A stretch of DNA of 64,000 nucleotides, taken from IMG/VR virus record IMGVR_UViG_3300028800_000071, positions 16,796 to 80,795 of that record; one strand, 5' to 3'. This DNA is from a virus. Position numbers and translations under genes: made by a program. This document shows, piece after piece, positions 29,221 to 60,545 of this stretch (its first letter is position 1; each line of letters begins with the position of its first letter). The notes under the pieces were generated by a model. That model was not told where the DNA came from. It did not search any database and saw only the letters and a list, made by a program, of their open reading frames with translations.

Positions 29221-32200
29221 ATGGCGATCTCGTTCGTCCAAGCCGCTCAAGGCGCGGGGTTCGGCGTCGTTCTCGGTGCGGCTCCCGTGAAAGGCAACCT
29301 CTTACTCGCCGTTGCGGTCAATAACGGCTCGACGCCGACAGCCAATACGGGCTGGACGAGCATCGACACCCTCAACCTCACGCAAGACGGCATTTCGCTC
29401 TATAAGATCGCTGGTGCGGCCGAACTCTCGACGCAGACGCCGATCGCCGGCACGTCGAGCAACGTTTCGGTCTACGAGTTCCACGCCGATCGCGGCTTTG
29501 CGGCCAATCCGGTCGATGACCATTCCGTGCGCCAAGGCGCACCGGCTACGCCGCCGACGTGCGTTTCTAACGGCGTAAACCCGACCAAGCCGATCAACGG
29601 AATGCTGGCGGTGTTTTACTCTACGTCGAGCGCCGATACGGCGCCGACGGCTGTTTCGGGCATGACCGTGCAACTCACGTTGAGCGGCGGCGCGACCGGC
29701 AACGGCGTCGGCTGTTATCAGATCGGCGTCAACGGCGAACACGTCACAAAAACAGCGACGTGGACCGGCTCAACGAGCGCATCATCGTGCGCCTTTATCA
29801 TCGTCTTTTACGAGCAGACGGAAGTCACGCTCGTGCAAGCCGCGACGGCCGTCGGCACCGGCGTCACGTTCGGATCTGCGCCGACGCAAGGCAATCTGCT
29901 CGTCGCCGTCTGCTTCAATAGCGGCACGCCGGCGCTCGGCACAGGCTGGACGAATATCGACAATCAGGCGAGTTCGCCCAATAGTCGATCTATGTATAAG
30001 ATCGCCGGGGCCGGCGAATCGACGACACAAAGTCCGACAAGTACGGCGACGAGTACGCTCATGGTCGCCGAGTTCAACGCCGTGAGCGGACCATTTACGG
30101 CAGCGAATCTCGACGTACATGGCGTGACGCGCGTTGCGACGGCAAATCCACCGAGCGTCACGTCCGGTGCTCTTACGCCATCGAAGGTCAACGACTTCGC
30201 CATCGTTGTCGCGTGCGATGCCGGTACGGCCGACGCTGCGCCGACGGCGATCACCGGCATGGTCACGCTCGTTGATATGCCAGGCACCGGCGGCAACGTC
30301 GGTATCGGCTTTGCGGCGTGGACGGTCAATACGGGCACGGGTTCGTTTACGAAAACCGTCACGTGGGGTAGCGGCACAACGTCGGCGAGCGCCGTTCACG
30401 TCATGATCTTTACGGTGCCGGGCTATACTTCAACGCCGTCGGGATCTGTGACGGGCGCGGGGGCCGCCAATCGCGCCGATAAGGCGGTGCGCACCGGCAG
30501 CATCACGGGAGCCAGCGCGCTCTCGCGGGCGATCGCTCATGGTCTGACGGCCTCGATCACGGCCGTGAGCTCCGCGCTCCGATTCGTCGCAAAGATATTG
30601 CCCGGCGCGTCGATGACGCCGACCGGCACGGCGACAAAGCAGGCGCAACTGCCGGTTGCAGGCAGCGTCACGGGTGCAAGCTCGTTCGTGCGCGCAACCT
30701 TTGCACAACTCGCTGGAAGCGAAACGCCGGCCGGAACGTTCGTGCGTTTCATTCAGCGCGTGCTCACGACGGGCTCGATCACGGGTGCCGGCGCCGCTTC
30801 AAAGCAGACGCAGGTGCCGGTGGCCGGGTCCGTCACGGGCTCGACTTCGATGCTGCACGCCATCGGCGCGCTACTCAGCGGCAGCGTCACGGGCGCGACC
30901 GGATTCGTTCGCTCGACGTTCCGTAAACTCACCGGCAGCGAGACCCCCGCCGGCGCGGCTACGCGTGCGATCGCGCGCGCCTTTACTGCGGCGAGCATCA
31001 CGGCAAGCTCGGCTCTGGCCACCGGCAAAGCCTTCGTGCGATCCTTGACGAGTTCGATCACGGGCACGACCGGCTTCGTTCGCTCGACGTTCCGCAAGCT
31101 CACCGGCAGCGAAACGCCAGCCGGCGCGGCTGCGCGTGCGATCGCGCGCGCGTTCACGGCAGCGAGCATTACAGCCACGTCGGCGCTGGCCACCAGCAAG
31201 TCTTTCCTCCGATCATTCACGGGTTCGATCACGGGCTCGAGTTCGATGCTACACGCCATCGGTGCGCTTCTCAGCGGCAGCGTCACGGGCACGAGCTCGA
31301 TGAACCGCTCGATCGGCGCGAAGCTCACCGGAAGCATCACGGATGCCGGGACGTTCATCCGATCGACCGTCGCGAAACTTACGGGCAGCGAAACTCCCGC
31401 CGGTGTCGTCGCGCGCGCGATCGCCCGCACCTTCGCCGCGGCGAGCATCACGGCGAGCTCGGCTCTGGCCACCGGCAAGGCGTTCGTTCGATCGTTCACC
31501 GGCTCGATCACCCCGGCCGGCTCGATCAATCGGTTCACGACGGCGCTGATCTCGGGCAGCGAGGCCGCTACGTCGTCGCTCAACCGCTTCACGGCGCGTC
31601 TTGAGGCCGGGAGCATTACCGGGGCCGGCACGGCTCACAAATCGACCGGAACGGTCGAAAGCGGCAGCATCACGGATGCCGGGGCGATCGGCAAGCAGAC
31701 GAAGGTGCCCGTGGCGGGCAGCGTCACGAGCTCGGGAACGCTCAGGCGCTCGATCTTCGCCTTGCTCGCGGCCAGCATCACGGCGGCCAGCGCGATCCGG
31801 CGCGCGTCGACCAGGGCGCTCGTCGCCCAGGTTACGCCGCAGGGCGGGCTCGCCCGGGCGATCGGCGCGGCGCTCGCGAGTGCCAGCATTACGGCACAGT
31901 CGCTGCTTACGTCCAATCGTGCCATCATCCGCAACTTCACGGCGTCGATCGCGCCGAGCGGGACGATCGGCAAAGCCGTCAGCGCGCTACTGAGCGGCAA
32001 CGTGGCGCCGGCGACACACCTCCTTCGCTCGACGGTCGTACAGTTCGGCGGCCAGATCACCGCAACGGCCGGCATCGTCCGTACGACGGTGCTCAATATC
32101 GCCGGCAGCATCGCGGCCGCTGGCACCATTGCTCGTGGCCGTATCAAGAACTTCACCGGCTCAATCACCGGGCAAGGCGTGCTCGCCGACCGCAAGGCGA

Positions 32201-32505
32201 TCAACGTCATCTTCAACGCCGTGCTTGCGCCGCAGGGCACGATACGTCGGTCGATCCGCAAGGCGTTCGCGGCCGTCATTGCGGCCGTCGGGTCGCTTCG
32301 CAATCTGTTCTATCACGCGCCGCCGGCCATCGTGCTCGATATTGCGATCATCGCGCCGACGGAGATCAGCGCCTCGATTCTCGCGCCGACGGTGATCGGC
32401 GCACCGATTCTCGCGCCGACGACAATCAGCGCACCGATTCTCGCGCCGACGATGCTTGAGCTCGATATTCCCGGCGCCATCATTCTGTCGGTTTCGGGGG
32501 ACTAA
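29221..32505 (+). CDS. Giant repeat-rich tail fibre / adhesin
   Basis: 1094 residues. Two related ~200-residue N-terminal beta domains (each starts V-Q-A-A and has G-N-L-L-V/L-A-V, then W-T-S/N-I-D). Residues ~405-1040 are roughly 30 degenerate repeats of 18-21 residues around 'G-S-I-T-G-A-G-x-x-x-R'; blocks such as F-V-R-S-T-F-R-K-L-T-G-S-E-T-P are near identical, so DNA-level duplication is evident. The end has three I-L-A-P-T units. No signal peptide. Long trimeric fibres with such repeats reach the host surface. Confidence 0.7.
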   Translation: MAISFVQAAQGAGFGVVLGAAPVKGNLLLAVAVNNGSTPTANTGWTSIDTLNLTQDGISLYKIAGAAELSTQTPIAGTSSNVSVYEFHADRGFAANPVDDHSVRQGAPATPPTCVSNGVNPTKPINGMLAVFYSTSSADTAPTAVSGMTVQLTLSGGATGNGVGCYQIGVNGEHVTKTATWTGSTSASSCAFIIVFYEQTEVTLVQAATAVGTGVTFGSAPTQGNLLVAVCFNSGTPALGTGWTNIDNQASSPNSRSMYKIAGAGESTTQSPTSTATSTLMVAEFNAVSGPFTAANLDVHGVTRVATANPPSVTSGALTPSKVNDFAIVVACDAGTADAAPTAITGMVTLVDMPGTGGNVGIGFAAWTVNTGTGSFTKTVTWGSGTTSASAVHVMIFTVPGYTSTPSGSVTGAGAANRADKAVRTGSITGASALSRAIAHGLTASITAVSSALRFVAKILPGASMTPTGTATKQAQLPVAGSVTGASSFVRATFAQLAGSETPAGTFVRFIQRVLTTGSITGAGAASKQTQVPVAGSVTGSTSMLHAIGALLSGSVTGATGFVRSTFRKLTGSETPAGAATRAIARAFTAASITASSALATGKAFVRSLTSSITGTTGFVRSTFRKLTGSETPAGAAARAIARAFTAASITATSALATSKSFLRSFTGSITGSSSMLHAIGALLSGSVTGTSSMNRSIGAKLTGSITDAGTFIRSTVAKLTGSETPAGVVARAIARTFAAASITASSALATGKAFVRSFTGSITPAGSINRFTTALISGSEAATSSLNRFTARLEAGSITGAGTAHKSTGTVESGSITDAGAIGKQTKVPVAGSVTSSGTLRRSIFALLAASITAASAIRRASTRALVAQVTPQGGLARAIGAALASASITAQSLLTSNRAIIRNFTASIAPSGTIGKAVSALLSGNVAPATHLLRSTVVQFGGQITATAGIVRTTVLNIAGSIAAAGTIARGRIKNFTGSITGQGVLADRKAINVIFNAVLAPQGTIRRSIRKAFAAVIAAVGSLRNLFYHAPPAIVLDIAIIAPTEISASILAPTVIGAPILAPTTISAPILAPTMLELDIPGAIILSVSGD

Positions 32506-33772: not shown

Positions 33773-34345
33773 ATGACAACCGCAAAGCGGACCCTCAACG
33801 GTCTGCGCATCGAAACCAAGAACCTTGCCGATCTCAAGGCGGCGCCCTACAACCCGCGCACGATCTCGCAAGAAGCGCTCAACGGGCTTGCGAAAAGCCT
33901 CGAACGATTCGGCATCGTCGAACCGATCATCTTCAACGAACGTACCGGGCACGTCGTCGGCGGCCACCAGCGGCTCAAGGTCCTGGAGCATCAAAAGAAG
34001 CAGCAGACCGACGTGATCGTCGTCGATCTTGAGCTCAAGGAAGAAAAGGCGCTCAACGTCGCGCTCAACAGCGAGCATATTCAGGGCGAGTTCGACGACG
34101 AAAAACTCGAGGCGCTGCTCAAAGAGATTCACGTGAGCGACAAAGAGCTATTCGACGGCCTGCGCTTCGAGGAGTTCGGCTTCAACATTGAAGCGCCGAA
34201 TATCGACGACGTGGTAGGCACGCCGAACATGGCCTTCGCCTCGAAGTTCGAGTGTATCGTCACGTGCAAAGACGAAGCCGAGCAGCGCGATCTCTACGAA
34301 CGCCTGCAAGCCGAGGGCTACAAGGTCAAGGTTCTGCAACTGTGA
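33773..34345 (+). CDS. ParB/Srx-fold nuclease-like domain protein
   Basis: 190 residues. Contains the ParB N-terminal box: L-K-A-A-P-Y-N-P-R (about 21-29), 'F-G-I-V-E-P-I-I-F-N', and V-V-G-G-H-Q-R-L-K (about 61-69), the counterpart of GHxR that binds CTP in ParB and ATP in related enzymes. A second half with E-L-F-D-G-L-R-F-E-E-F-G-F is typical of ParB-like proteins paired with methyltransferases in phages. Lacks the HTH of true ParB. Its GTGA overlap with the ABC-GNAT gene shows the two act together. Confidence 0.8.
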   Translation: MTTAKRTLNGLRIETKNLADLKAAPYNPRTISQEALNGLAKSLERFGIVEPIIFNERTGHVVGGHQRLKVLEHQKKQQTDVIVVDLELKEEKALNVALNSEHIQGEFDDEKLEALLKEIHVSDKELFDGLRFEEFGFNIEAPNIDDVVGTPNMAFASKFECIVTCKDEAEQRDLYERLQAEGYKVKVLQL

Positions 34346-35565: not shown

Positions 35566-35895
35566 CGTATCAGACGCGGGGGCGCGTTCAGACGCGTCAG
35601 GGGGCAGGGAAACGTCATATCCCGTCAGTCTTTCAGACGCGTTCAGAACGCGTCAGATCAGCATCGAACACCTGTTCGATACTTTCACGAATGGCAGCTT
35701 GCCCTGGTGGGCGGGCAAGCGTCGTTTTAAGCGTTTCCCTGCGTCCCTAGACCCCCCTAGCCCCCCGCAGCAGTATCAGACGCAGACGATTCTCAGACGC
35801 AGCAGGGGGCAGGGAAAGCGAGCCCCACGCGATTCTGTACGAAGCGCGTCTGAGAAGCGTCGGGGGGCGACGTTCAGATGTTCAGACGCGTCTGA
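35468..35895. repeat. Cluster of CAGACG / CGTCTG repeats downstream of the ParB/ABC-GNAT genes
   Basis: Fourteen exact CAGACG hexamers counted by eye over 427 bp: nine on plus, five reversed. Most extend to TCAGACGC. Two are 14-bp palindromes: CGTCTGATCAGACG (35474-35487) and TCAGACGCGTCTGA (35882-35895). The first copies lie inside the end of the ABC-GNAT gene, the rest are untranslated. A second 15-bp direct repeat, CAGGGGGCAGGGAAA, occurs twice (near 35598 and 35802). Candidate iteron origin, partition/ParB-binding site or packaging site. Confidence 0.75.
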
Positions 35896-35995
35896 TCAGT
35901 ACGTTCGGAAAGTGCTCACTTTTGGAACGCCGCGCGGCAGATCGCCGGATGCAAAAAAGAAAAGAGGGTCGCCTGATCGGCGGCCCTCTTTTTCG
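35566..35995. other. Non-coding interval between convergent operons
   Basis: No credible gene. Holds most of the CAGACG cluster and, at the right end, a bidirectional terminator. It is the meeting point of the plus-strand unit (33.6-35.6) and the minus-strand early operon. Confidence 0.6.
35961..35993. terminator. Bidirectional terminator between convergent operons
   Basis: Eight-bp stem AAAGAGGG (35961-35968) with CCCTCTTT (35984-35991), a T-G wobble, inner CGCC/GGCG and loop TGATC. A-rich upstream (AAAAAAGA) and T-rich downstream (TTTTTCG), so it serves both strands. Confidence 0.8.
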
Positions 35996-36403
35996 TTATC
36001 CGACGAGCGCGCTTATTCGCCGTCGAACGTGATCGGGTGGCGTCCACAGTCCTTGACGCCCGCTGGTTTTGATCGGCTCGATGCGTCGAACGTTGCGCAG
36101 CATCCAGCAGTAGGGTCCCGCTGCCCATGGCGGCAGATCGTCACCGAACTCGCGAACGTGAATCACGTCGACGAGCTCGGCGATCGCGACGATGCTGCTT
36201 CGCTGCGCCATCGCCTCGGCGCGCAGGCGATCGGACAGACGCCCGACGTTCGCCTCAACGGCGGCGAGATCGTCGAACGCTTTGCTGCCGGCGTGAATCA
36301 AGATCGTGCCGCGATACGGGGTCGGCCATGTACGATTCTCGATTCGTTTCCCGGCGTGCGTGATCGCCCACGCCCACGGCTGCCGCAGCGTGAGTGCTCT
36401 CAA
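35996..36403 (-). CDS. ASCH-domain protein
   Basis: 135 residues. Begins A-L-T-L-R-Q-P-W-A-W-A-I and has 'K-R-I-E-N-R-T-W-P-T-P-Y-R-G', then 'I-L-I-H-A-G-S-K', the canonical ASCH (PUA-like beta-barrel) pattern with its W/G RNA-binding face. ASCH proteins bind RNA or hydrolyse modified nucleosides (YqfB-type amidohydrolase); phage copies are common. Last gene of the minus-strand early operon, 4-nt overlap upstream. Confidence 0.85.
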   Translation of the reverse strand: MRALTLRQPWAWAITHAGKRIENRTWPTPYRGTILIHAGSKAFDDLAAVEANVGRLSDRLRAEAMAQRSSIVAIAELVDVIHVREFGDDLPPWAAGPYCWMLRNVRRIEPIKTSGRQGLWTPPDHVRRRISALVG

Positions 36404-36666
36404 CCTTGCCTCTCTTTCCGATGCGCGCGATTGCGCCGTTGTGCCTGGCGCCGGCGATGCACGGCGTCCACGTACAGCGGTTCCTTGCCGCGTGATCTGG
36501 CATCCTGAACGACCCTAGTCGGGATTCGCTCGCCGCAGTTGCAGCCGCAGAGCGGATTCGCTTTGCATCCCGGGCAGTAGTCCTCCGTATGCCAGCCGTG
36601 ATCGGGGCATTTGTCTGCGCCGCAGACGCAGGTCGTGCCCTGATCTTTTTTGTGGCGATGATTCAT
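36400..36666 (-). CDS. Small Cys-rich zinc-binding protein
   Basis: 88 residues. Eight Cys and several His (C-V-C-G-A-D-K-C-P-D-H, then C-P-G-C-K-A and C-G-C-N-C-G) in the first 50 residues, then a basic Arg-rich tail. Likely two zinc knuckles plus nucleic-acid-binding tail. Overlaps both neighbours by 4 nt. Confidence 0.65.
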   Translation of the reverse strand: MNHRHKKDQGTTCVCGADKCPDHGWHTEDYCPGCKANPLCGCNCGERIPTRVVQDARSRGKEPLYVDAVHRRRQAQRRNRAHRKERQG

Positions 36667-40784: not shown

Positions 40785-42008
40785 TTACTGCCGAAGCGGC
40801 ATGATGATGCAGTAATCGCCGGTCCGATTCGCCAGGACGAGCGGCGAGAGCGGGTTGTGCAGGTCGGCTTCGATCTGCTCGTAATCGTCGAACGACGACA
40901 GGCAGCTGGCGAGATACTCGGCATTGAAGGCAATGCTCATATCGTTCGCGAGCGGCTTGGGCGCCGGTTCGGTGAACGCGACGAGACGCGTGAACTTTCC
41001 TTTCGTCTCGCTCTCGGCGTTGATCTCGACGGCGTTGCCCTTGGCAAGGAACAGGAGTTTGATCAACGATGCGCGGTCGCTGGCCACTTTGCCGGCGGCC
41101 GTCACGGCGGCGATCATTTCATCCACGGGGATACTGACTGTGCCGCTGATCATAGCCTTCGCCGGATAGACGGCTTCGTAGTTCGGGTACTGACCGTCCA
41201 CGCAGCGGCAGATCACGGTGATGCCGTCGCTCACGGCGATGGCGTACGTGGTGTTGGCCTTGACGGTGATCGAGACTTCGACTTCGCTGGCCTTCGGCAG
41301 AACTTTCATCATCGCTCTAGCGAATACGGGAACGACGATGGCCTTGCCGCCGGTGCCCTTCTTCTCTTGATCGCCGGTGAACGAATCACGAACGACGGCA
41401 TCCTCGATCTGGAAGTGTCCCATTTTGTAGCCGTCCGTTGCGGTGATCGCTGCGCCGGCGTTGCCTTTGATTTCGAGCAGCGTGCTCATGAGCGTGGCGC
41501 CGCGCGCTTGTTCGTCGCTCGCGTGCTTACTGCATTTGAGGAACGCCACGCGTACGTTGTCCGTCGGCGCGAGGAAGGCCGCGATGCGTTCGCCGTCGGT
41601 TGGCGGATAGGCGGGGAGGTCCTCGGCCGGCAGAGTGGGCAGCGTGACGCTGCCAATTCCCCACCCGAGATCGTCGGCGCTGGCGAGGGAGAGTTTATCT
41701 GCCTCGAACGTCAAGCGAACGTTCCCGTGAACGCCCTTGAGCATTTCCTTGAGCGCCTTGGGGCTAACGGTCGTTTCACCGGCGGTGATGCCGACGGCCG
41801 GGACTTCGGCGATGATGCGCGTTTCGAGATCGGTTCCCGTGATCGAGAGTTTGCCGGTGCGGTGATCGGCGCTCAGTTTCACGTTCGCCAAGATCGGCGT
41901 ATGCGAATGCGTGTTGACGGCGAGCAAGACTTGCGTGAGTGCCTTGACGAGATTCTTGGCGTCGGTGACGACGACGGCGGGTTCGAGTTTGGTTTGTGCT
42001 TGTGCCAT
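40785..42008 (-). CDS. dnaN: DNA polymerase III beta subunit (sliding clamp)
   Basis: 407 residues. I chose ATG 42008, 12-13 nt after CCGTAGGAG; ATG 42020 would be too close to it. Three-domain clamp signature: 'L-A-V-N-T-H-S-H-T-P-I-L-A-N-V-K-L' (domain I), F-L-K-C-S-K-H-A-S-D-E and T-D-G-Y-K-M (domain II), D-G-Q-Y-P-N-Y-E-A-V-Y-P (domain III) and the closing Y-C-I-I-M-P-L-R. Clamps tether polymerase to DNA. A phage-encoded clamp without a visible phage polymerase suggests redirection of the host Pol III, or that the polymerase lies outside the window. Slightly longer than most bacterial DnaN, with an insertion in domain II. Confidence 0.9.
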   Translation of the reverse strand: MAQAQTKLEPAVVVTDAKNLVKALTQVLLAVNTHSHTPILANVKLSADHRTGKLSITGTDLETRIIAEVPAVGITAGETTVSPKALKEMLKGVHGNVRLTFEADKLSLASADDLGWGIGSVTLPTLPAEDLPAYPPTDGERIAAFLAPTDNVRVAFLKCSKHASDEQARGATLMSTLLEIKGNAGAAITATDGYKMGHFQIEDAVVRDSFTGDQEKKGTGGKAIVVPVFARAMMKVLPKASEVEVSITVKANTTYAIAVSDGITVICRCVDGQYPNYEAVYPAKAMISGTVSIPVDEMIAAVTAAGKVASDRASLIKLLFLAKGNAVEINAESETKGKFTRLVAFTEPAPKPLANDMSIAFNAEYLASCLSSFDDYEQIEADLHNPLSPLVLANRTGDYCIIMPLRQ

Positions 42009-42016
42009 GTTGATAT

Positions 42017-42538
42017 TCATTCTCCTACGGGTGCGTTGTGTGTATTGTAGAACGCCGCGACGGCGAGATTCTTGAGCATTGATTCGATGGCGCGGCATTC
42101 GGCAGCGGCGTCAACTTCGATCGCATCGAAGGCCACGTCGCCGCATTCGTCCCAAAGAATCCTGCCGCGTGTATCTATGGGACAGGTGATGAGGGTGTCG
42201 CCCTCTAGCCAATAGACCTGCGCGTCGTCAAGGATGACGAGTTGCGTGCCGGTCGGCGGCGAACTTGTATCGACTTTCTTCTCGAACTTGAGGCGGTCCG
42301 TGAGATCGACTTGTGCATCCGCCAACTTCTCGGCGTAGTTCTCCAAGTCGAGGCAGACCTGATTGAAGTCCGGCAGATAGCGCGGGTAATCCACTTGCGC
42401 GTCGAGATCGTGATCCCACGCTCGTTGCAGTTGGCGCGCGGCCTGTGCAAAGAGCATCGCGGCCTCTGGCATATCGGGGCAGGCGGAACAGAACTCGTTG
42501 GCGGCTTTGCCGTGGATGCAGTCGTAGGCGCGCTTCAT
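42017..42538 (-). CDS. Early protein, unknown
   Basis: 173 residues. N-terminal C-x(n)-C-S-A-C zinc half-site, helical middle (Q-L-Q-R-A-W-D-H-D-L), then V-I-L-D-D-A-Q-V-Y-W-L-E-G strands. Its stop lies inside the SD leader of dnaN (AGGAGAATGA). Unknown family. Confidence 0.6.
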   Translation of the reverse strand: MKRAYDCIHGKAANEFCSACPDMPEAAMLFAQAARQLQRAWDHDLDAQVDYPRYLPDFNQVCLDLENYAEKLADAQVDLTDRLKFEKKVDTSSPPTGTQLVILDDAQVYWLEGDTLITCPIDTRGRILWDECGDVAFDAIEVDAAAECRAIESMLKNLAVAAFYNTHNAPVGE

Positions 42539-49320: not shown

Positions 49321-49701
49321 ATGAAAAACCTGAAAGCCTTAGTATTGCTATTGGCGTTGCCGCTGCTCGCGGTGACGCAACCCATGGAACATACGGACGA
49401 CGCGCATTGCCATGCGGCCACGCAGGCCGACGATAACCCGGCGATCGTCGTGTGGTGTACGTCTGCGGCCGAAGATCACGTAACGGATGCCGAAGGCGAA
49501 AGCGGCGATTCGCGCGCGATCGATCTCGTGATGGGCGCGATGCAATTGCTCATTACGGCGCTGGCGCACCGCGAAATGGGCGACAGCAACTATCAGTATC
49601 TCGTTGACAACGCCCGCCAGGCATTACAGGAAGCCGCGCAGGCGGCGCGATCGAACCGCGTGATCTTGCTCGTCCAACACGCCCAAGAATCGTTGCCTTG
49701 A
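49321..49701 (+). CDS. Small exported protein
   Basis: 126 residues, preceded by GTAGGAGAATAATCCAA. Signal peptide M-K-N-L-K-A-L-V-L-L-L-A-L-P-L-L-A-V-T, then a His/Cys/Asp-rich start and helical body. Exported from an early operon; possibly periplasmic. Ends overlapping the TTG of the ATPase gene. Confidence 0.55.
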   Translation: MKNLKALVLLLALPLLAVTQPMEHTDDAHCHAATQADDNPAIVVWCTSAAEDHVTDAEGESGDSRAIDLVMGAMQLLITALAHREMGDSNYQYLVDNARQALQEAAQAARSNRVILLVQHAQESLP

Positions 49702-50693
49702 GTCTATTCAAAAAGTCGAGCGAAACCGGCAAGAACGTTCGCGACAAAATCCTGATCTTCGGGCCGACGCATACGTCCAAGACGCACGCGGCGCTCGGCT
49801 GGCCAGATCCCGCTATCGTTGACGTCGAGAACCGTGCCGGCCACTTCTCCGACCGCTTCGACTTCTTCCACGCGCAGCCGCGCACGATGGACGATATCCT
49901 CGAGGTGATCGCCGAGCTCAAGAGCGGGCGCATCGGCTGCAAGACATTCGTGCTCGATTCGTATTCGGCGATCTACGAGAAACTCGTGGCGGTCCATACG
50001 ACCGTCACGAGCCCGCAGCAGGGCAAGGTTCCTGTCGCCGTCACGGACTATGCGACGGTCAACCGCCGCGTGGCGCCGATCCGCGAGTTCATCTTCTCGA
50101 CGATCGACCAAGACTTGATCGTCGTGGCGCACCAGCAACAGAAGTACGATCGCGCCGGCAACAATTTCTCGAAGCGCAAGGAAGTCGAGTTCATGGGCGA
50201 CGAGAAGTTCCGCTACGCGTTCGACTACGTATTCAGAACCGAGCCGACCGGCAGCGACCCGCGTACGCACGCCGTAAAGTTCGTGATCGAAAAGAGCGCT
50301 TCGCCGAAGCTCAAGATCGGCGACGTGCTGGCCGTGAAGCCGAACGAGAAGTTGTACGACGTTTTCCGGCAGCGCGTCGGAAAGGGCGAGACGGCCGCAC
50401 GGTCCTCCGCGGCCGCACCGCCTTCTCCCGAGGCGGCGCCCGCGCCCGCAAGTGAGCCGCCGCAGCAGGAGCAGCCGGCGTTGCTCGATACGGCCGTGGC
50501 CAATCGTCCGCTCACGCGCGAGCAGATCGCCGCGATTGCGAAGTTGCAGAGCCAGCTTGGTTTGAATCACGGGGATATCGGCGTCTTTGTGCTCGGCATT
50601 ACGGAGCACCGTTATCAGGACTACAAGTCGCTCACGGGCGGCGAGGCACAGACGTTGATCGCCATGCTCGAAAAGCAAGCCGCAGGCTCGTAA
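49698..50693 (+). CDS. AAA_24 / Sak4-like RecA-fold ATPase
   Basis: 331 residues, TTG start overlapping the previous stop (TTGA). Walker A G-P-T-H-T-S-K-T (22-29), Walker B hydrophobic-D at F-V-L-D (D87), then 'D-L-I-V-V-A-H-Q-Q' as sensor strand. Residues ~230-260 are Ala/Pro-rich linker and the C-terminus is a small helical domain (R-E-Q-I-A-A-I-A-K-L-Q). Sak4-type proteins promote single-strand annealing in phage recombination. Stands before RusA and methyltransferase genes in the same direction. Confidence 0.7.
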   Translation: MSLFKKSSETGKNVRDKILIFGPTHTSKTHAALGWPDPAIVDVENRAGHFSDRFDFFHAQPRTMDDILEVIAELKSGRIGCKTFVLDSYSAIYEKLVAVHTTVTSPQQGKVPVAVTDYATVNRRVAPIREFIFSTIDQDLIVVAHQQQKYDRAGNNFSKRKEVEFMGDEKFRYAFDYVFRTEPTGSDPRTHAVKFVIEKSASPKLKIGDVLAVKPNEKLYDVFRQRVGKGETAARSSAAAPPSPEAAPAPASEPPQQEQPALLDTAVANRPLTREQIAAIAKLQSQLGLNHGDIGVFVLGITEHRYQDYKSLTGGEAQTLIAMLEKQAAGS

Positions 50694-50968
50694 TGGAACG
50701 CTTTTACTTCGTCACGCTGCAATGGAAGCGCCTCGGCGATTCGGATTGGGTATTCCAAAACGATATCATCGACGTTCACCCGCTGGCCTATCTGCGCCGC
50801 AACGTCGAGGCGTCCGATCAAGCCGTCAAGCGCTACGAGGAATACAAAAAAGGCGGCAAGTGGCAACAGCCAACGGTCGCCGAGGAATACGTGCTGCGGT
50901 TTTGGGCTGAGATCACGCGCGAGCAGTACGACGAGCATAAGGCCTGGGAAGAACGGGAGCGCGAATGA
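50693..50968 (+). CDS. Small early protein, unknown
   Basis: 91 residues. Aromatic-rich (Y-F-V-T-L-Q-W-K-R, W-V-F-Q-N) N-half, acidic/basic helix C-half. ATG directly after the ATPase stop. Unknown. Confidence 0.55.
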   Translation: MERFYFVTLQWKRLGDSDWVFQNDIIDVHPLAYLRRNVEASDQAVKRYEEYKKGGKWQQPTVAEEYVLRFWAEITREQYDEHKAWEERERE

Positions 50969-51366
50969 ACGCCGGCAAGAGCGAGGCGCCCGACGAATTC
51001 GAGCGCCTCCGTGATGGCATGGAACGTCCGGTATATGACCGGCGGCCGAGTCCTAAACTAGAACCCGACGCACGCCATGAAGTGGATGATCTGTTGCCCG
51101 ATCTGGGAGATAAACCCCACACAGGCCGCGATGGTGATTGCCATGGTAAGACCCTCCTTGCGTCGGATAGTAGCACAAGCCGGTTGCGCTACGCCATAGG
51201 TCGCATTGGAGCTCGTCTGATCGCTCGGGTCGAGGCAATCGTCATGGCGCTGCCAGAGAACGCCAGGACGGGCCGTGGCGGCTTCCGATGGGGCGATCTG
51301 GCCTGCTGGCTGATCTTCGGCGCCACGGCGGCCTATTTCGTCGGCCGCTCGGTTTTGGGGCGCTAG
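50965..51366 (+). CDS. Protein with C-terminal transmembrane helix, unknown
   Basis: 133 residues, ATGA overlap. Polar, Pro/Arg/Asp-rich first ~75 residues, then a basic helix and a hydrophobic segment L-A-C-W-L-I-F-G-A-T-A-A-Y-F-V-G near the end. Low-complexity middle makes reality less certain, though it fits the spacing of the operon. Confidence 0.4.
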   Translation: MNAGKSEAPDEFERLRDGMERPVYDRRPSPKLEPDARHEVDDLLPDLGDKPHTGRDGDCHGKTLLASDSSTSRLRYAIGRIGARLIARVEAIVMALPENARTGRGGFRWGDLACWLIFGATAAYFVGRSVLGR

Positions 51367-51568
51367 ATATGCACAACGGTGGACAGCCTGTGTATAACTA
51401 CCCCACTTATCCACAGGGTTATCCACAGTCAACCCTGGGTTATGCACAGGTTATGCACAGGCGCTCTAAGGATCGCGCGCCGCGCGTGCGCGCGCTACTA
51501 CTGCTACTACTGACCGTAATTTCTAATTGGTTTACGCGCGAGGCCGCTTTTTCAAAACCTGTGGATAA
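51367..51568. other. Cluster of six DnaA boxes, candidate replication origin
   Basis: Perfect TTATNCACA at 51407-51415, 51419-51427, 51440-51448 and 51451-51459 (plus) and reversed at 51389-51397 (TGTGTATAA) and 51560-51568 (TGTGGATAA); one near-match at 51367-51375. Four boxes lie within 53 bp at 12, 21 and 11 bp spacing, then an AT-richer stretch (51505-51535). This is the design of oriC-like origins where host DnaA opens DNA. Confidence 0.75.
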
Positions 51569-51584
51569 CGGGGATAAGTCATGA
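51369..51584 (+). CDS. Candidate 71-residue Tyr/Pro/Gln-rich protein overlying the DnaA boxes
   Basis: ATG 51369 lies 2 nt after the previous stop; its TGA overlaps the next ATG (ATGA), so the frame fills the whole interval. N-half has Y-P-T-Y-P-Q-G-Y-P-Q, encoded by the DnaA boxes; then a basic patch and a hydrophobic segment L-L-L-L-L-L. The box-driven amino acids mean it may be a by-product of origin sequence. No SD. Confidence 0.35.
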   Translation: MHNGGQPVYNYPTYPQGYPQSTLGYAQVMHRRSKDRAPRVRALLLLLLTVISNWFTREAAFSKPVDNGDKS

Positions 51585-51775
51585 CGCCGGCATTCGAGCG
51601 ACTGCTGCGCGAACGCGCGGCCAGCGCGATCTGGGAGGAGGATCGGAAGCTCTTTGCCCAGGCCGCCGACTTCGCTCGCGATCTCGACCGCTTCATCGTG
51701 GCCTGCGAGGCGTCCCGATCGCCCGGCATGACGATGATCGATCTCGCCAAAGAACTGCGAGCCATGTTCCCATGA
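51581..51775 (+). CDS. Small early protein, unknown
   Basis: 64 residues, ATGA start. Helical, with E-R-L-L-R-E-R-A-A-S-A-I-W and K-E-L-R-A-M-F. Could be a small DNA-binding or adaptor protein adjacent to the origin. Unknown. Confidence 0.5.
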   Translation: MTPAFERLLRERAASAIWEEDRKLFAQAADFARDLDRFIVACEASRSPGMTMIDLAKELRAMFP

Positions 51776-52137
51776 GTGACGATCTGTCGCTCTTTGATTA
51801 CGTGCCGCCCAAACCGCCGGTCGATCTCGCGCGCGACTTCGAGCGCGGCATGGAAGAATCGCAGCGCTCGGCCAACGCCAAGTGGACCGACGACGAGATC
51901 GCGACGGTACGCAAAGCGATCCGCACCGTTGCCGGCCGGCTGCATACCTTCACGACCGATGCCGTCTGGGACGAGCTCGGCGCGGACTTTCCGTTTTCGA
52001 AAGGCATGGCATCGCAACTGCTTGCGATCGTGCACGAAGGCATCATCATCAATACCGGCCGCGTTGACGTATCGCGTCGAGGCGGCAAACACGGCCACGC
52101 TCAACGTCTGAGCGTATGGCAATCAACGCTAAAGTAG
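51772..52137 (+). CDS. Winged-helix-like early protein
   Basis: 121 residues, ATGA overlap. D-D-E-I-A-T-V-R-K-A-I-R then 'F-T-T-D-A-V-W-D-E-L' and 'A-S-Q-L-L-A-I-V-H-E-G-I-I' resemble helix-helix-wing spacing; strongly basic end. It follows the DnaA boxes, so an origin-binding or replication initiator role is possible but speculative. Confidence 0.5.
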   Translation: MSDDLSLFDYVPPKPPVDLARDFERGMEESQRSANAKWTDDEIATVRKAIRTVAGRLHTFTTDAVWDELGADFPFSKGMASQLLAIVHEGIIINTGRVDVSRRGGKHGHAQRLSVWQSTLK

Positions 52138-54775: not shown

Positions 54776-54951
54776 ACGACGAACAGGGCTTTCGTACCGG
54801 CGCCTGGCTGTGCTTCTTGGCGCTCGCGATCGTTTTCGGGTCCGTCGCCGGCGCCATGATTTCCCTGCCGCCGTTCGATCTCGCTGCGGTCGGCTATATG
54901 CTCGGGATCGCAGGCGTATCGGCATTGCTGGCGATCGCGGTGAGGCCATGA
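54772..54951 (+). CDS. Small two-span membrane protein
   Basis: 59 residues from ATG 54772. Two hydrophobic helices (G-A-W-L-C-F-L-A-L-A-I-V-F-G and A-A-V-G-Y-M-L-G-I-A-G-V). Ends overlapping RusA by 4 nt. Fifth consecutive exported or membrane gene. Confidence 0.5.
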   Translation: MNDEQGFRTGAWLCFLALAIVFGSVAGAMISLPPFDLAAVGYMLGIAGVSALLAIAVRP

Positions 54952-55526
54952 CGGCCGAAGCCTTTACGGAGCAGCAGATGGGCGGCGAACGCGAACCGTT
55001 CCTGTCGATCTTTATCCCCGGCGAACCGTACCCGAAAGGGTCGCTCACGCCCATTACGCAGGGCACGCGTCTCGTCTACGACAAGCGCTTGAAACGTATG
55101 GGCAAGAAGCCGATCATCCGAATGCTGCCGGCGCACGATAAGTTGCGTAAGGACGGGACGCGCGGCGATGCGCGCAAGCGAGCGGAGATATGGACGCTTC
55201 ACGTCACGACGGCCTTCAACGTCTGGCAACTGACGCATAAGCGCGTGCCGGGCGACGACGAGGCGATCCGCGCGGAGCTCGTATTCGTTTTGCCGCGCCC
55301 GCCATCGCGCAAGAAGGCGAAGTATCCGAACCGCAAACCTGATCTCGATAAGCTCGCGCGTTGCGTCTATGATTGCGCCGTGCGGGCGAAGGTGCTCGGT
55401 GAGGATTCGCGCATCGTCAAGCAGCAGCATGAGAAGATCTTCCCGATCGAGCTCGTATATCCGCAGTACAATCCCGATACGGCCTTCCTGCCGACCGGCG
55501 TTCACGTCAAGTTGTGGGTTCTGTGA
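54948..55526 (+). CDS. RusA-like Holliday junction resolvase
   Basis: 192 residues. RusA signature R-K-P-D-L-D-K-L-A-R-C-V-Y-D (129-142) with catalytic Asp candidates D132, D134 and D142, then E-D-S (152-154). N-terminus is an S-I-F-I-P-G-E-P-Y-P-K strand as in the family. Resolves recombination or replication branches before packaging. Longer than E. coli RusA (120 aa) owing to an insertion around residues 45-80. Confidence 0.8.
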   Translation: MTAEAFTEQQMGGEREPFLSIFIPGEPYPKGSLTPITQGTRLVYDKRLKRMGKKPIIRMLPAHDKLRKDGTRGDARKRAEIWTLHVTTAFNVWQLTHKRVPGDDEAIRAELVFVLPRPPSRKKAKYPNRKPDLDKLARCVYDCAVRAKVLGEDSRIVKQQHEKIFPIELVYPQYNPDTAFLPTGVHVKLWVL

Positions 55527-58598: not shown

Positions 58599-59645
58599 GG
58601 TAGCCAGAAAGGAAGCGAGAATCATAACCATAGAGCCTAGCCGTTCCCACGGCGGGAACCATAGCAAATGCGCGAGCCACGATAGCCGCGAGAACCATAT
58701 TTCGCGCGCGAGCCAGCGGAGAATAGAGAACCATAGCCTTTGCGCGAGCCACGCTGTTTGTGGGAACCAAAATATAAGTGCGAGACAATAAAATGGCGCG
58801 AACCATTACTCATGATCGAGCCATACACGAAGCGCAAACCAACGCGATGACGCGAGCCACACCACGTGCGAGAACCTAGTACCACGAGCGAGTCAAAGTA
58901 ATCGCTAGAACCAATCGGCATGAACGAGCCAACGCAGGGTGAGAGAACCAACATAAGAGAGCGATCCACACCTGGACGCCTTGAAACAATACACTTGCGA
59001 GAGTCATTTGCTGGCGCGAACCATGGAAAAAGAACGAGACACACTTGTAGAGTGAACCAATGAAGAAGATCGAGACACACAGGTCGTGCGAGAACCAACA
59101 GCAAGGATCGAACCAATGAAAGGGAGAGAACCTATCGCGAGGCGAGCGAGCCTGAAGGCAGAGAGAATCATAGCACCGGCGCGAGCCACGCCCCATCGGC
59201 GAGAACCATATTATGCGCGCGAGCCATATCTAGAGTGAGAACCATCTTCGTAGCGCGAGCCAACGTGAAGTGAGAGAACCAAGGAGGGAAAGCGAGCCGA
59301 CCTGTGTGCGGGAACCAATAAATAAGAGCGAGCCATTCAGGACGATCGAAACAATGATCTTGTGCGAGCCTGTTTGACCTGCGCGAACCATAGAGAGTGT
59401 GCGAGCCTTGGCTCTGGAGAGAACCATAGTAGAGGTGCGAGCCAGGACCCAAGCGCGAACCGTACGATCAGAACGAGCCAATATGTTCGGCGTGAACCAA
59501 TTCTAATGCGCGAGCCATCAAGAAAGAGCGAACCATTCGAAGCAGCGCGAGACAAAAGCTCCGTGAGAATCAGACCGCCCGATCGAGCCAATAGCTCCGC
59601 GCGAACCATCTGACACGGCGCGATCCATAACGAACGAGCGAACCA
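58599..59645 (+). repeat. TIGR array (tandem interspaced guide RNA array), 29 repeat pairs
   Basis: Two motifs alternate along the whole stretch: type E, GCGAGCCA (variants GAGACA, GAGTCA, GATCCA), and type O, GAGAACCA (variants GCGAACCA, GAATCA). By eye there are 58 motifs, 29 E and 29 O in strict alternation; 44 of the 57 spacings are exactly 18 nt and the rest 17-20. Between motifs are ~10-nt variable segments, no two obviously alike. One E-O pair is ~36 nt, the processed length of tigRNAs (two spacers per guide). The 17/19/20-nt steps break every reading frame, so the array is non-coding. A Tas-like gene follows 51 nt downstream. Confidence 0.85.
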
Positions 59646-59696
59646 TAATCCTAGCGAACTCTTTTCAACACAACACAGATTGAAAGGGAATCCAAA
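59646..59696 (+). other. Gap between TIGR array and Tas gene
   Basis: 51 bases. Begins with a degraded half-motif (GCGAACT near 59654) and ends with AAAGGGAAT as SD for the Tas gene. A-rich; no promoter picked out. Confidence 0.5.
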
Positions 59697-60545
59697 ATGA
59701 TCCAAAACGAAGAAGGCCTTTTGAACTCCGACGCCCTGATCGAAAAGCTCGGGCGCGATCTCAAGAGAGCCGCAGCAGGCTTCACACGTAACGAAGCCCG
59801 CTTTATCGTCGAACTGCATTACGATATGCAATCCTTCCGCATCGAAAGCCAAGGCCGCGTCCGAGCTCTCGGTGAAGCCGGCGCCCCGATCGAAACGCTG
59901 CAATACTTCCTGCGGCAAATGGAACTGATCGAAGTCGCCTCCGCAGCGGTGCTCGATTCCTACAGCGCCGCCAATCCGCTCGGGCGATGGGCGCGCGAGA
60001 TCCTCGGCATCGGACCGAAGTTCGCCGCCGGCCTGCTTGCGCATATCGACATTCCCAACGCCAAGACGGCCGGGCAAATCTGGGCCTTCGCCGGCCTCGA
60101 TCCGACGCGCGAGTGGAAGAAGGGCGAGAAGCGTCCATGGAACGCGCGCCTCAAAAAACTCTGCTGGCTGATCGGCGAATCGTTCGTCAAAGTGAGCGGC
60201 AACGAGAACGCCTTCTATGGCCAACTCTATAAGCAGCGCAAGGCGTACGAGACGGCTAAGAACGAGGCCGGCGACTACGCCGAGCTCGCGGCGTCGATCT
60301 TGGAGAAGAAGAACTACAGCGCCGATACGACGGCGAAAGCCGAGTACCAAAAGGGACGGCTACCAAAGGCGCATATCCACGCTCGCGCCAAGCGCTATGC
60401 CGTCAAACTGTTCCTGGCGCATTACTTCGAGGTCGGCTGTAAGCTCGCCGGCCGCACGCCGCCGATACCCTATCCGGTCGCGCACCAAAACCACGCGCAT
60501 TACATTGCGCCGCCCGGCATCGATCACGTGGAGGCCGTCGCATGA
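59697..60545 (+). CDS. Tas protein (TIGR-associated, Nop/IS110-C-like, no nuclease; TasA-like)
   Basis: 282 residues, ATG after AAAGGGAATCCAAA. Residues ~10-95 form long helices (coiled-coil-like). Residues 102-116 (I-L-G-I-G-P-K-F-A-A-G-L-L-A) are a helix-hairpin-helix, followed by I-W-A-F-A-G-L-D-P (128-136), K-K-G-E-K-R-P-W-N-A-R-L-K-K-L-C-W-L (141-158) and a C-terminal helical segment with K-A-H-I-H-A-R-A-K-R-Y-A-V-K-L. This is the C-terminal fold of IS110/IS116 transposases, related to the Nop domain of box C/D snoRNPs and Tas proteins. No DEDD, RuvC or HNH residues found, so a non-cleaving, DNA-binding effector is expected. The adjacent array fixes the identification more than sequence alone. 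Confidence 0.75.
   Translation: MIQNEEGLLNSDALIEKLGRDLKRAAAGFTRNEARFIVELHYDMQSFRIESQGRVRALGEAGAPIETLQYFLRQMELIEVASAAVLDSYSAANPLGRWAREILGIGPKFAAGLLAHIDIPNAKTAGQIWAFAGLDPTREWKKGEKRPWNARLKKLCWLIGESFVKVSGNENAFYGQLYKQRKAYETAKNEAGDYAELAASILEKKNYSADTTAKAEYQKGRLPKAHIHARAKRYAVKLFLAHYFEVGCKLAGRTPPIPYPVAHQNHAHYIAPPGIDHVEAVA

Follow-up and report, generated by a model that had tools for sequence, protein, structure and literature searches.

Where this phage begins to copy its genome, and whether it relies on the host initiator DnaA to do so, is the question raised by a 214-bp non-coding gap at 51367-51580, in which putative DnaA boxes are crowded together. The window analyzed here is a 64,000-nucleotide stretch of viral DNA, corresponding to bases 16796-80795 of an 80,795-base IMG/VR virus record (an 80.8-kb phage contig; such records are often fragments). 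No gene was predicted within the gap, as predicted coding sequence stops at 51366 and resumes with a start codon at 51581. Six TTATNCACA boxes, each an exact match to TTWTNCACA, were found there in exactly 180 bp (51389-51568). Four of them are co-oriented on the plus strand within 53 bp, at 51407-51415 and 51419-51427 (both TTATCCACA) and at 51440-51448 and 51451-51459 (both TTATGCACA), with start-to-start spacings of 12, 21 and 11 bp, that is, about 1, 2 and 1 helical turns. The other two boxes were assigned to the minus strand, one ahead of this group (51389-51397; TTATACACA) and one well beyond it (51560-51568; TTATCCACA), while a seventh, box-like word with one mismatch, ATATGCACA, opens the gap on the plus strand (51367-51375).

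These six exact matches to TTWTNCACA were the only ones in the whole window, where 1.22 would be expected, and none of 100 shuffled sequences reached six. Further, in 200 simulated genomes (64 kb each, first-order Markov), the maximum was one TTATNCACA box per 200 bp. On the strength of the shuffles and the simulated genomes, a chance grouping of box-like words is statistically refuted, and its probability can be considered negligible. The first-pass annotation had reported six boxes in 180 bp, with four in 53 bp and two reversed; the coordinates were confirmed, and the cluster goes beyond chance. When repeats were sought throughout 51340-51620, none appeared besides the boxes, a CTR run and GC words.

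The box at 51451-51459 is followed by a GC-rich spacer of 35 bp (51460-51494), in which the 20-mer starting at 51475 is the most stable of the 64-kb window according to nearest-neighbour stability; folding of this GC block was no better than that of shuffles. The spacer leads into CTACTACTGCTACTACTG (51495-51512, plus strand), the complement of six DnaA-trios that read 3'-GAT GAT GAC GAT GAT GAC-5' on the minus strand, with two of the six units being GAC and every third one thus ending in C. No other run of at least five CTR units exists on either strand of the 64 kb, and a (YTR)6 run arose in 0 of 20,000 simulated 214-bp stretches, a figure to be read with the knowledge that the motif, itself defined in the literature, was noticed after inspection of the region.

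Together with the AT-rich stretch behind it, the trio run forms a candidate DNA unwinding element (51495-51556), assigned from predicted duplex instability, on the far side of which lies the last inverted box. In the nearest-neighbour analysis, the 40-bp segment beginning at the first trio (51495) ranked at the 99.94th percentile of the window for instability, and the 20-bp segment from 51515 at the 99.87th percentile. Hence, the most stable 20-mer of the 64 kb directly precedes a 40-mer that is nearly its least stable, and the order along the plus strand is four co-oriented boxes, GC block, trio run and AT-rich DNA. The GC block, the trio run and the unstable DNA, arranged in the order of an oriC, were absent from the first-pass annotation and are the stronger part of the case.

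Taken together, the features of the 214-bp gap are best explained by a theta-type replication origin opened by host DnaA, a reading that, judged from the sequence, we consider reasonably probable; the virus would then probably let the host start the copying of the viral genome. This reading is strengthened because the trio run is unique and the pair of stable and unstable DNA segments stands with it in the appropriate order and polarity. The earlier proposal of a candidate phage origin acting through host DnaA is thus retained as the best explanation once the GC block, the trio run and the unstable DNA are taken into account, while the boxes alone would have been insufficient. Strand-separated third-position GC skew displayed no clear switch at 51.4 kb.

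In the mechanism that we propose, host DnaA-ATP would bind the group of four co-oriented boxes, whose phasing roughly follows the helix, and we infer that the resulting filament points to the right. Having passed the GC block, this filament would take hold of the minus strand at the trios (3'-GAT-type units) in single-stranded form and melt 51495-51556. The two inverted boxes (51389 and 51560) may assist in looping the complex or in setting its limits. Loading of the host helicase, primase and Pol III would come next, with the phage clamp perhaps replacing DnaN, and Sak4 and RusA would back later, recombination-dependent replication. In its most complete form, the proposal is that a tailed phage carries a complete copy of a chromosome origin of the Basal Unwinding System (BUS) type, in which the GC-rich spacer is unusually long, and that it depends on host DnaA and the host replisome for replication but contributes a clamp of its own; we put this version forward tentatively, with slightly less than even confidence.

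Several replication and recombination genes were recognised in the phage. A DnaN-type sliding clamp, already claimed in the first-pass annotation, is encoded at 40785-42020 on the minus strand (phrog_947, E=1.8e-44; PF00712 and PF02768). On the plus strand, a Sak4-like recombinase lies upstream of the candidate origin (49698-50693; phrog_124, E=1.1e-10; PF13479) and a RusA-like Holliday junction resolvase was found at 54948-55526 (phrog_140, E=2.6e-11; PF05866 exactly at the cut-off). A ParB-like protein (33773-34345) and DNA methyltransferases were also recognised among the scanned genes, and many early genes were without a family. Among the proteins scanned, which cover the products of only a minority of the structural genes at 5-33 kb, none was recognised as a polymerase, helicase, primase, Rep or DnaA-domain protein, and within that scope the earlier statement that a polymerase is lacking also holds. 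The absence of a recognised initiator, helicase, primase and polymerase in the genes scanned was counted in favour of a host-driven origin. The contig is classed as linear and may be incomplete, so that it may lack some replication genes; no word of at least 15 nt is shared by its opening 2 kb and its closing 3 kb.

The second gene after the gap (51772-52137, plus strand) encodes a 121-aa protein that begins with MSDDLSLFDY, in which DLSLF is a possible clamp-binding motif; this was the only N-terminal clamp-motif-like sequence found. No family was found for this protein, and its structure model was poor (pLDDT 53). The closest relatives of the phage clamp include many from alphaproteobacterial phages, which is a weak hint at an alphaproteobacterial host.

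Other roles for the boxes were weighed against an origin. Tightly packed consensus boxes could also form a DnaA sink or regulator resembling datA or DARS, which would bind or inactivate host DnaA and stop initiation on the host chromosome; trio-less box clusters are common in viral contigs, and the titration of DnaA by DnaA-box plasmids (PMC5835720) was also counted in favour of this idea. The datA and DARS loci of E. coli are likewise non-coding DnaA-box clusters; however, datA requires an IHF site between its essential boxes, and no IHF-like site with fewer than two mismatches was detected near the boxes here, although the IHF consensus employed may not match the preference of the host. Moreover, datA and DARS are not known to include a trio run and a melting element, and a sink would leave the trio run, the GC block and the unstable DNA in origin order unexplained; we therefore hold it to be improbable. 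An operator through which DnaA controls the genes from 51581 onwards would fit the position of the last box (51560-51568), 12 bp ahead of the start codon, but a control site requires neither a trio run nor a melting element, and a search confined to the sigma-70-like type revealed no promoter on either strand of 50900-51900. Such an operator appears more improbable still.

The main rival places the decisive site elsewhere. At 58619-59650, a non-coding repeat array of 1 kb comprises about 54 directional, degenerate GARCCA-type units, with 36 of 55 spacings being exactly 18 bp and GARCCA occurring 35 times on the plus strand vs. once on the minus strand. The units GCGMGAACCAT and GCGCGAGCCA recur every 18 bp and alternate to give a 36-bp period. 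Immediately 3' of the array, a 282-aa gene (59697-60545) matched phrog_4285 'transposase' (E=2.8e-50), with a weak IS116/IS110/IS902 transposase domain match, and its product may bind the DNA of the adjoining array. According to this alternative, replication would truly start at the array, or the array would serve the phage for partition; a phage protein would bind it, and the DnaA cluster would be a helper or serve another role. The number of units, their 18-bp period, their single direction and their non-coding setting are iteron- or centromere-like; iteron origins are often paired with DnaA boxes, which act as helpers in iteron plasmids and in P1 oriR. Nevertheless, the array lies 7 kb from the boxes, contains no exact DnaA box and consists of degenerate units, and no Rep/RepA-type initiator was recognised among the genes scanned. 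We regard this alternative as unlikely, albeit less so than the sink or the operator.

Two other repeat regions were observed in the window. One, named as an alternative site in the first-pass annotation, is an apparently non-coding region of about 1.1 kb (35566-36660), flanked by gene blocks that converge on it, in which TCAGACGCGTC words recur in repeated and in inverted form. The other is a 171-bp direct repeat in 2.1-2.3 copies (30887-31282) inside a 1094-aa gene (29221-32505).

Box clusters and box-trio modules were also analyzed in other viral contigs. Three tight co-oriented boxes were present in at least 120 of these contigs; among such clusters, only that of this phage and an AT-rich run in contig L079 had four YTR units within 70 bp downstream. 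No unwinding asymmetry was observed at 114 viral box clusters, in which the downstream DNA was less stable than the upstream DNA in 54 cases (p=0.27). Since clusters are common in viral contigs and lack this asymmetry, it is the trio run and the melting element that carry the case for an origin at 51367-51580. When loose spacing was allowed, CTACTA was not enriched after viral box pairs compared to the TAGTAG control (77 vs. 72), and runs of at least four trios numbered 10 vs. 2 in the controls, with six of the 10 belonging to one lineage.

As a polarity control, matches to TTATCCACA-N13-CTACTACTA (n=8) were compared with those to the reverse-polarity arrangement TTATCCACA-N13-TAGTAGTAG (n=6), two small sets that are alike by counts alone. 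Five of the eight former matches lay outside frames of at least 100 codons, in contrast with the reverse-polarity matches, all six of which fell within long open frames. Extended trio runs were found in seven of the eight (six different sequences, as L277 and L280 are the same), followed by AT-rich DNA in most; the eighth, L278, was set aside because it lies within a 248-codon frame. In L276, L277/L280, L279, L281, L282 and L283, a box, a 13-bp spacer and four to seven CTA trios follow one another, either outside long frames or in short ones. The frame location and the extended trios together point to canonical BUS-like modules on viral contigs, with the same polarity as in this phage. In a further contig (L168:2397-2437), two boxes run straight into ACTACTACTATTACTACT, a trio of six units, within a short frame of 81 aa. 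The clamp-bearing phages AmM-1, 16-3 and Mae-JY04 contained no TTWTNCACA in the stretches read. In Aurantimonas phage AmM-1 (L289, 21304-22494), a 'DnaA C-terminal domain containing protein' is annotated beside a primase, and this protein is a candidate phage-encoded DnaA-like initiator.

Relatives of the phage itself were scarce. Neither nucleotide comparison with phages and plasmids nor protein-guided scans of viral contigs with Sak4 and sheath yielded any. The terminase scan recovered this phage from a second sample, though solely its terminase region (L123), as well as a relative with a 75% identical terminase (L124/G001), whose contig matches the structural half only and holds no boxes. 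Thus, no relative covering the candidate-origin region emerged from the nucleotide, Sak4, sheath and terminase scans.

Plasmids and P1 are known to have origins driven by DnaA, which are usually accompanied by iterons and a Rep protein. If the origin reading is correct, the design of a chromosomal unwinding system would be shared by the origin of a phage in which no initiator was recognised. This would mean that the initial step of chromosome replication is directly open to viral takeover, and the 35-bp spacer would probe how far a DnaA filament can reach from box to trio. If it also applies to the contigs with canonical spacing, these modules would represent an undescribed, recurring viral strategy; in the portions of the DnaA-trio literature found, no report of a trio in a phage was apparent.

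With P1 oriR and iteron plasmid origins, the locus shares an extrachromosomal replicon and a group of DnaA boxes at an origin, here a candidate one, but here no iterons adjoin the boxes, the sole array is 7 kb away, and neither RepA nor any other Rep family was recognised among the genes scanned. It resembles E. coli oriC in its R-type boxes (TTATCCACA/TTATACACA) and in an unwinding element on one side; unlike oriC, it has an IHF-like site only with two or more mismatches, and trio-type rather than 13-mer repeats lie by its boxes. The earlier description 'arranged like an oriC' is therefore apt for the B. subtilis-type BUS order and not for E. coli oriC.

The published BUS order is box, GC-rich, trio and AT-rich DNA, and the trio definition comes from the same sources (PMC8287927, PMC8235120 and PMC7561715); the spacer is at most 16 bp, with a mode of 10-13 bp (PMC8287927). 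The trio is written 5'-CACCTACTACTATTACTACTATGA-3' and requires a preceding GC cluster, and stringent trios are 3'-[G/A]A[T/A]-5', more than three in succession (PMC7561715); the B. subtilis origin does not survive the reversal of box 6 or of boxes 6/7 (PMC6669920). The BUS definition applied here (PMC8287927, PMC8235120) calls for one or two tandem co-oriented boxes (up to two mismatches), at least three (NAN) trios in the 3'-5' sense, and 0-16 bp from box to first trio, or more only with a degenerate second box between. The phage locus has four exact co-oriented TTATNCACA boxes, six (NAN) units at 51495-51512, GC-rich DNA ahead of the trios and AT-rich DNA behind them, and a box strand that carries CTA and points to the trios. 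That this is the true box-to-trio polarity is supported by the comparison of matches in viral contigs described above and otherwise by the B. subtilis sequence. The spacer, however, is 35 bp, with no co-oriented degenerate box inside it (the best has six mismatches), and GAC at every third unit departs from the stringent trio of PMC7561715. Because of these two departures, we class the locus as one that works like the BUS rather than as a strict member. It further differs from bacterial BUS origins, with spacers of about 10-16 bp, in being phage-borne and in not adjoining dnaA/dnaN; the dnaN-type gene of the phage is 9 kb off. With the incC-type BUS of B. subtilis it shares the co-oriented boxes, the GC block, the trios, the AT-rich DNA, the non-coding setting and the polarity.
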